A stretch of DNA of 64,000 nt from Solimonas soli DSM 21787. GTDB lineage: Bacteria; Pseudomonadota; Gammaproteobacteria; Nevskiales; Nevskiaceae. Every line of letters begins with the position of its first letter. Position 1 is the first letter of the stretch. Location: assembly GCF_000474945.1 (NCBI RefSeq), contig NZ_AXDW01000015.1:62001-126000 (forward strand), in the 5' to 3' direction. Made by a program: the position numbers and the translations under genes. The notes beneath the pieces are model-generated. The model saw only the letters and a list, made by a program, of their open reading frames with translations, made no database searches and was not told where the DNA came from. This document shows, in pieces, positions 31,101-32,752 of this stretch.

Positions 31101-31433
31101 GCTTCCGGTGGTGTCCGCGGCGAGAGCGTGGCCGGCGTGCGCTACCGCGCCTGGCAGCCATACGCCTGCCTGCATCCTGCGATCGGCGTGCACACGCCGC
31201 TGGTGTTCGACCTCTACGACACCTGGACGGGCCGTGCGCTCGCCGGCTGCACGTATCACGTCGCGCATCCGGCGGGTCGCAACTACGACACCTATCCGGT
31301 CAACGCTTTCGAAGCCGAGGCGCGGCGCATTGCGCGCTTCGAGGCGATCGGCCACACGCCGGGCCGCTACGTGCTCGGCAGCGCCAGCCCGAATCCGGAC
31401 TTTCCGGCGACGCTCGACCTGCGCCGGCCCTGA
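28101..31433 (+). CDS. Transglutaminase-like/DUF2126 protein
   Basis: 1110 residues from ATG 28101. The N-terminal part is a bacterial transglutaminase N-domain (about 1-90; [18 protein letters not shown]). The protease-like core (about 140-265) has the catalytic Cys in [20 protein letters not shown], His in [10 protein letters not shown] and Asp in [10 protein letters not shown]. The long C-terminal part (about 330-1100) is DUF2126 ([32 protein letters not shown] region). Family members usually lie with an alpha-E protein and a circularly permuted ATP-grasp protein and are thought to make or process a peptide; neither partner is in the window. Confidence 0.92.
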
Positions 31434-31946: not shown

Positions 31947-32097
31947 CCGGATTCTCCTGATTGTGATCGATGCCGGGGTTGACCATGACCATAGCGGCGC
32001 GTGGTCCAGCCGTGCCAAGTCCGAATGGACGACCGTGAGCGATCCCGGGCCGGCCGACGATTTAGATTTTCTAACGGGTGAGCCCAATAAAAATCAA

Positions 32098-32126
32098 TTG
32101 TTGCGGCGCAGCAACCGCGCTTTAAT
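32098..32126 (+). promoter_or_regulatory. Predicted sigma70 promoter for the candidate sRNA
   Basis: The -35 TTGTTG (3 of 6 to consensus) and -10 TTTAAT (5 of 6) are separated by exactly 17 bp, within an AT-richer island. The -35 lies next to a small inverted repeat GTTGC/GCAAC (32100-32115). Confidence 0.45.
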
Positions 32127-32132
32127 ACACCC

Positions 32133-32237
32133 ACACCAACGGTCGATGCCTCGAAACGAAGCTCCCGGCGGTACCAGTCTCCTCCAGATCCCGCTCAGGG
32201 GTCTCTTTAAAGCCACCGTCACCGGTGGCTTTTTTTT
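32133..32237 (+). ncRNA. Candidate small RNA with its own promoter and terminator
   Basis: No gene on the plus strand reads into this terminator: the preceding plus gene ends at 31433 and a minus gene lies between. TTGTTG at 32098-32103, 17 bp, then TTTAAT at 32121-32126 form a plausible sigma70 promoter, giving a start near 32133. The transcript of about 105 nt has a C/U-rich segment (GTCTCCTCC, 32178-32186), a hairpin GATCCC/GGGGTC with loop GCTCA (about 32188-32204) and a perfect terminator. An anti-Shine-Dalgarno-like single strand and a 3' U-tail are features of Hfq-type sRNAs. It could instead be an attenuated leader for the iron-uptake operon. Confidence 0.5.
32209..32237 (+). terminator. 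Strong intrinsic terminator
   Basis: A perfect 8-bp stem, AGCCACCG/CGGTGGCT (32211-32218 and 32223-32230), has loop TCAC, a run of T at 32230-32237 and AA just before the stem. It points in the plus direction and does not follow any plus-strand gene. Confidence 0.93.
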
Positions 32238-32380
32238 ATCCCGAATTCGGCCCTTACGTCCGGCGTGTGCATTGGCGGCGGCGGAGTCCCGGTCTTGCCG
32301 ACGTCCGGCCTGGAAGGGCGAGGGCGGCGATCGGGCGGAGAAAACGTACTAAACGGTAGCCGGGGCGTTCGACGCAGGCA

Positions 32381-32443: not shown

Positions 32444-32752
32444 ATGTCGCTCGCCATGTCGCAGACCGAAGCCTTGCCATCGTCGCGGTGCCTTGCGTGG
32501 TGGCGCGGCATGCTCGCCGGTCCGCTGTCCTTCGTGACCGCCGCCTTGATCATGCTCGGCAGCACGGTGTGGCTGCCGTCGGGTCGCGCGCAGATCGACA
32601 ATCTCGTCCTGCCGATCGTGCTTTTCCCACTGATCTGGACGGCGCTCTTTCTTTACGCATTGCTGGCCAGGCGGCTGACGCGCGCCTATGCGGTCGTCGG
32701 CGTGCTCGGCGGCGTGAACGCGGCGCTGGTCGCCGCGCGCCTGTGGGCCTGA
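32444..32752 (+). CDS. Small membrane protein, DUF3649-like iron uptake protein
   Basis: 102 residues from ATG 32444 (ATG 32456 is an alternative). There are about three membrane segments: GMLAGPLSFVTAALIMLG, IDNLVLPIVLFPLIWTALFLYALLA region, and AVVGVLGGVNAALVA. Small size, hydrophobicity and position right before a PepSY protein and a DUF3325-like protein match the DUF3649-PepSY-DUF3325 set linked to siderophore uptake. It is separated from the PepSY gene by 4 bp. The function in the inner membrane is not established. Confidence 0.68.
   Translation: MSLAMSQTEALPSSRCLAWWRGMLAGPLSFVTAALIMLGSTVWLPSGRAQIDNLVLPIVLFPLIWTALFLYALLARRLTRAYAVVGVLGGVNAALVAARLWA

Follow-up and report, generated by a model that had tools for sequence, protein, structure and literature searches.

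A conserved small-RNA gene of Solimonas soli with a putative anti-Shine-Dalgarno seed and LysR- and PhaR-type promoter elements

Introduction

The stretch of DNA analyzed here (64,000 nucleotides of contig NZ_AXDW01000015.1 of Solimonas soli DSM 21787, hereafter the window) contains, at positions 32098-32237 of the plus strand, a segment that raises two questions: is it a small-RNA (sRNA) gene in its own right and, if so, what might control it? An initial annotation, based on the letters alone, had proposed a promoter, a transcript with an exposed stretch able to pair with Shine-Dalgarno (SD) sequences and a terminator, and had considered a role in iron metabolism. On sequence grounds, this segment is a genuine, conserved and independent sRNA gene of a Solimonas-type bacterium, and two conserved promoter elements missed by the initial annotation, if correctly recognized, point to carbon storage and metabolic status.

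Results

Anatomy and fold of the sRNA gene

The core promoter, read from the sequence and conserved among relatives, consists of a -35 hexamer TTGTTG (32098-32103) and a -10 hexamer TTTAAT (32121-32126), separated by a 17-bp spacer. Its description as near-consensus does not hold, as the hexamers match the consensus at 3/6 and 5/6 positions, respectively, and the window promoter is absent from the list returned by a consensus promoter scan, but the designation as a promoter stands because of its conservation rather than its consensus match. The predicted plus-strand transcript is about 105 nt long (32133-32237), its start being deduced from the -10 hexamer and its end from the terminator. It comprises an anti-SD seed, GTCTCCTCCAG (32177-32187, with CTCCTCC at 32179-32185), a first hairpin, AGATCCC-GCTCA-GGGGTCT (32186-32204), and an intrinsic terminator with a 10-bp stem and a loop of four (32209-32232), with eight T residues at 32230-32237 (eight U in the RNA). 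The segment 32131-32238 folds at -37.6 kcal/mol (z = -3.2), and none of 200 shuffled sequences was equally stable. In the ensemble of the predicted sRNA, the seed is unpaired at 95-99% up to the hairpin, leaving GUCUCCUCCAG exposed. The hairpin-bearing transcript, the accessible CUCCUCC-like stretch and the terminator of the initial annotation were therefore all recovered, as was its view that the gap holds no plus-strand gene in need of a terminator: the upstream DUF2126 gene ends at 31433, the SnoaL gene is encoded on the minus strand, and there is no plus-strand gene with its end just upstream. Rfam searches at curated cut-offs yielded nothing in the window.

Conservation and distribution

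Two congeners have 80% identity to the element over about 180 bp (E about 1e-38), and the named genomes in which the scan found it belong to Solimonas, Nevskia, Sinimarinibacterium and Stenotrophobium, which are gamma-proteobacterial relatives of the window organism. Three copies stand in tandem in S. marina, each equipped with a promoter and a terminator of its own. The 9-nt sequence CTCCTCCAG is invariant across 29 copies, and hairpin 1, with 95% of its cells paired, is almost invariant in sequence in the same comparison. Changes on both sides of pairs were counted in 27 cells of the whole structure, versus 6.5 in shuffles, all within the terminator stem, which is covariation. Conservation extends beyond the covarying terminator stem to the invariant seed. 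Searched with an RNA model restricted to the transcript, 70 of 85 genomes of the order gave matches, the weakest of which include chance ones (the seed is absent from seven of 40 examined). Matches in bins of Acidobacteria, Verrucomicrobia and Rhodospirillales may come from mis-binned contigs; they were counted as copies and excluded from statements of distribution. A conserved single-stranded stretch of the CUCCUCC type, with its own promoter and terminator, identifies the product as a predicted trans-acting anti-SD sRNA.

Two conserved elements in the promoter region

The first of the two elements is a LysR-type (T-N11-A) box, TTAGATTTTCTAA (32062-32074, plus strand), centered near -65, an exact match for which 0.09 occurrences would be expected in the window. 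The second is a PhaR-type operator (32096-32116, plus strand), matching the S. meliloti PhaR consensus used for scoring (PMC12542648) at 20 of 21 positions; it includes a palindrome, TTGTTGCGGCGCAGCAA (32098-32114), over the -35 hexamer, with the core TGCGGCGCA at 32102-32110. The consensus match of this site is weak when taken alone, because 20/21 on this loose consensus is equaled or beaten at three further positions of the 64-kb window, none of them with the longer palindrome; the sole perfect occurrence of TGTTGCRNYGCARCA in the window is the palindrome of the sRNA promoter. Likewise, a LysR box with two mismatches allowed is matched by 46% of shuffles and is not significant by itself, significance being reached only through the fixed spacing. 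LysR box and palindrome occur at one such spacing in 41 of the 45 promoter copies, with 40 nt from the start of the box to the start of the palindrome core, and the module common to most copies reads TTAG-N5-CTAA, 19 nt, then TCAATTG-N-TGC-NNN-GCA. The PhaR rule YGCRNYGCR is obeyed by all 40 module sites, which are related by descent, with a few listed twice, and for which the three central bases had been left free in the search. Two LysR-linked copies (L349 and L351) lack the PhaR core, so PhaR control would not be universal.

The likely partner of the LysR box is a GcvA-type regulator (NF008352), the ortholog of which in the window genome scores 333.8 bits (cut-off 288). Each of the 11 genomes searched in the genus has a gene of this type. 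It adjoins the window-type sRNA (hereafter type A) in 20 of the 31 family genomes that carry it, divergently in 11 and tail to tail in nine, a GcvB-like arrangement not seen in the window genome, in which the LysR gene lies elsewhere (C12:26547-27509).

Small membrane proteins on the same module

The same promoter module precedes, and would drive, genes for proteins of 36-81 amino acids with one hydrophobic stretch, many of which end in KAA; none of those scanned had a Pfam or NCBIfam match above the cut-off. At six loci (L163, L167, L109, L079, L070 and L182), such a gene is followed by the type A seed, 16-74 nt beyond its stop codon; the sRNA is therefore part of the 3' UTR of the small-protein gene, which suggests that it is 3'-UTR-derived there. 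In the window genome, the sRNA and the small protein are split, the latter being encoded at C1:564180 with its own copy of the module. Loci of the small-protein family include L061:2302-2514 (C1 of the window genome, about 564.3 kb), L116, L118, L124, L129, L066 and L068.

A sister sRNA beside phaR

The weaker matches of the RNA model included a second sRNA (type B), GTCTCCTCCAGAAAGGCC..GCGCCTTTCTCGCAC plus terminator, with the same seed as type A. Of the 35 phaR-bearing genomes, 20 have it within about 1.3 kb downstream of phaR and in the same orientation; phaR itself was found in 35 of 37 relatives. The window genome is among the 20, with a copy (L243, C1:137721-137787) directly downstream of phaR and a PhaR core in its promoter; a third member of the sRNA family is located at C6:18261. 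The same arrangement, type B immediately after phaR and a PhaR core within its promoter, recurs at L245, L248 and L256, sometimes with two copies. A typical type B promoter reads TTGAC..TATACTGCACYGCAACA, and the PhaR core lies over its -10. Rfam gave no match to the sRNA in the type B loci scanned.

The association of seed and PhaR core was assessed on 40 weaker matches, obtained with the RNA model without the promoter and fetched before promoters were inspected. A PhaR core was present within 130 nt upstream in 27 of the 33 matches with the seed and in none of the seven without it, against 0.5% expected from shuffles. Over all distinct copies, the core was found in 25 of 34 type A and 47 of 52 type B copies (about 1% in shuffled sequences).

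Storage genes, Hfq and candidate targets

The window genome has hfq, phaR and a phasin gene. A double form of the PhaR-type element precedes the phasin gene; that genome has no other double site of this kind. A further PhaR-type site of the window genome, TGTTGCGGTGCAGCA, is located at L112:1824, just upstream of a fabG-like gene. The PHA synthase domain PhaC_N (PF07167) was not found in the window genome, which is 99.8% complete, and no synthase motif was detected in the stretches around phaR, the phasin gene and the third sRNA, so that the PHB part of any mechanism rests on phaR and phasin.

Duplex energies of the seed with the start regions of the phasin, phaR, LysR, small-protein and neighboring genes were not clearly better than those of shuffled seeds. 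A search of the window genome for the exact seed complement returned, apart from the sRNA genes, a single site, in L303, with neither hairpin nor terminator.

Discussion

A putative PhaR-repressed, LysR-activated sRNA

The reading that we favor, with a probability of about 0.7, is that the window sRNA is an MmgR-like, trans-acting anti-SD sRNA that would be activated by a LysR regulator, repressed by PhaR and released when PhaR leaves the DNA. A GcvA-type regulator bound near -65 would activate the promoter; LsrB binds at -72 to -60 of the anti-SD sRNA NfeR1 (PMC10746234). PhaR bound across the -35 would repress it; PhaR binds and represses mmgR (PMC12542648, PMC8401924), and MmgR limits PHB (PMC8401924). 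Storage granules, or whatever PhaR senses here, would take PhaR off the DNA, and at phaP1 in Ralstonia repression by PhaR is relieved upon granule binding (PMC11332829). The sRNA would then accumulate together with phasin, the sister sRNAs and the small membrane protein, which share the operator, and its single-stranded stretch, probably with Hfq, would cover the SD sites of target mRNAs and decrease their translation. SisA, which belongs to the MmgR family, acts as a repressor of many mRNAs, probably by way of an anti-SD 10-mer (PMC12559287).

An alternative that we consider unlikely retains the same anti-SD sRNA and takes the -35 palindrome for a second, activating LysR site, PhaR being uninvolved at the sRNA promoter. 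A second contact site near -35 is common among LysR proteins, and the fixed 40-nt distance between LysR box and palindrome core would fit such a contact, but the palindrome matches a measured PhaR consensus and also occurs where no spaced LysR box accompanies it, namely at the phasin gene and over the -10 of the phaR-side sister sRNAs, and there are LysR-linked copies without the palindrome.

Still less probable, by a wide margin, is the iron-responsive sRNA considered in the initial annotation, tied to the downstream operon of the PepSY/iron-uptake type. The intact PepSY neighbor that would favor it was seen beside the sRNA in the window and in S. flava only, the adjacency not being retained elsewhere, whereas five Solimonas-type genomes have retained the upstream SnoaL gene; moreover, no Fur box was found in the sRNA promoter region (best match 11/19) and the conserved promoter elements are of other kinds. 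The link to the iron-uptake operon was rejected accordingly, and iron does not seem to be involved. The DUF3649 label given to the downstream ORF (about 32444-32752) received no confirmation from Pfam or NCBIfam. In S. variicoloris, a fragment resembling the PepSY protein lies beside the sRNA (L162:2949-3109) and may be a decayed gene.

That the element, upstream of a plus-strand operon as it is, could be a 5' leader or attenuator of the PepSY mRNA, or a stray terminator, is scarcely tenable and was rejected, given the strong terminator some 200 bp upstream of the ORF, the self-contained tandem copies in S. marina, the other downstream genes at other loci and the invariant seed.

A possible recurrent circuit

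The PhaR-controlled reading may have a broader counterpart, to which we give somewhat less than even odds: PhaR and anti-SD sRNAs would form a recurrent circuit, in which granule growth titrates PhaR and releases anti-SD sRNAs, phasin and the small membrane protein, damping translation during carbon storage. Such a circuit would operate with MmgR in alpha-proteobacteria, across the whole of this gamma-proteobacterial order and with some sRNAs of the RF02278 type in other families, through ancient descent or repeated convergence. Three RF02278-type sRNAs from other gamma-proteobacterial families (L184, L194 and L199) have PhaR-type palindromes upstream, which most sRNAs of this type lack. MmgR is the sole PhaR-controlled sRNA described in the literature that we found. 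In the order studied here, PhaR-type operators seem to have been retained at several anti-SD sRNAs, one of which is often located beside phaR, and a second sRNA type also seems to be tied in with a LysR regulator of the GcvA type and with a small membrane protein. If this is true, sRNAs would carry storage-granule status into translation on a far wider scale than is known.

Comparison with known systems

The nearest Rfam family is Burkholderia ncS54 (RF02871), the best match to which covers the whole 3' part, seed and two hairpins (32175-32239; 39.0 bits, E 1.9e-07). This score lies below the cut-off of 43, so the window sRNA is not a member of ncS54, and the cut-off was reached in none of 61 genomes. 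In enterobacteria, the GcvA-type LysR gene gcvA stands beside, and often divergent from, the sRNA gene gcvB. The adjacency of LysR gene and sRNA described above is similar, but the GcvB seed is G/U-rich, whereas that of the window sRNA is C/U-rich, with no Rfam match to GcvB.

The toxic sRNAs or double-hairpin RNAs of Betaproteobacteria (RF02278) share with the window sRNA a UCUCC seed, two hairpins, multiple copies and a predicted pairing with ribosome-binding sites (PMC5688073), but the first hairpin differs and the score is 23.7 bits against a cut-off of 50. NfeR1, or alpha-r14 (RF02344), is likewise an anti-SD sRNA, and its LysR T-N11-A box lies at -72 to -60 (PMC10746234); it has three seeds, and the three hairpins each with CCUCCUCCC that define alpha-r14 are not found in the window sRNA, which has one CUCCUCC seed and scores 16.3 bits (cut-off 58.8). 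In the CcaF1-CcsR locus of Rhodobacter (cuckoo RNAs), a small protein shares a single transcription unit with sRNAs of the anti-SD type (PMC10253847), an organization resembling that of the six 3'-UTR loci; in contrast, the sRNA stands alone in the window genome, and no DUF1127 ORF was seen beside the window copy.

A close parallel in terms of putative control is MmgR, or alpha-r8 (RF00519), of S. meliloti, which, like SisA-D of Caulobacter, is a short sRNA with a C/U-rich anti-SD stretch (PMC8401924, PMC12542648, PMC12559287). The window sRNA is distinct from this family (RF00519 score 22.4, cut-off 41): its seed precedes the first hairpin, whereas that of MmgR follows it, and its second regulator would be of the LysR type, rather than NtrC. 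Both have a PhaR operator in the core promoter: CAATTGTTGCGGCGCAGCAAC in the window sRNA, recognized only by its letters at 20/21 positions of the S. meliloti consensus, and CAATTGTGCACCGCAGCATTA in mmgR, which is linked to PHB.
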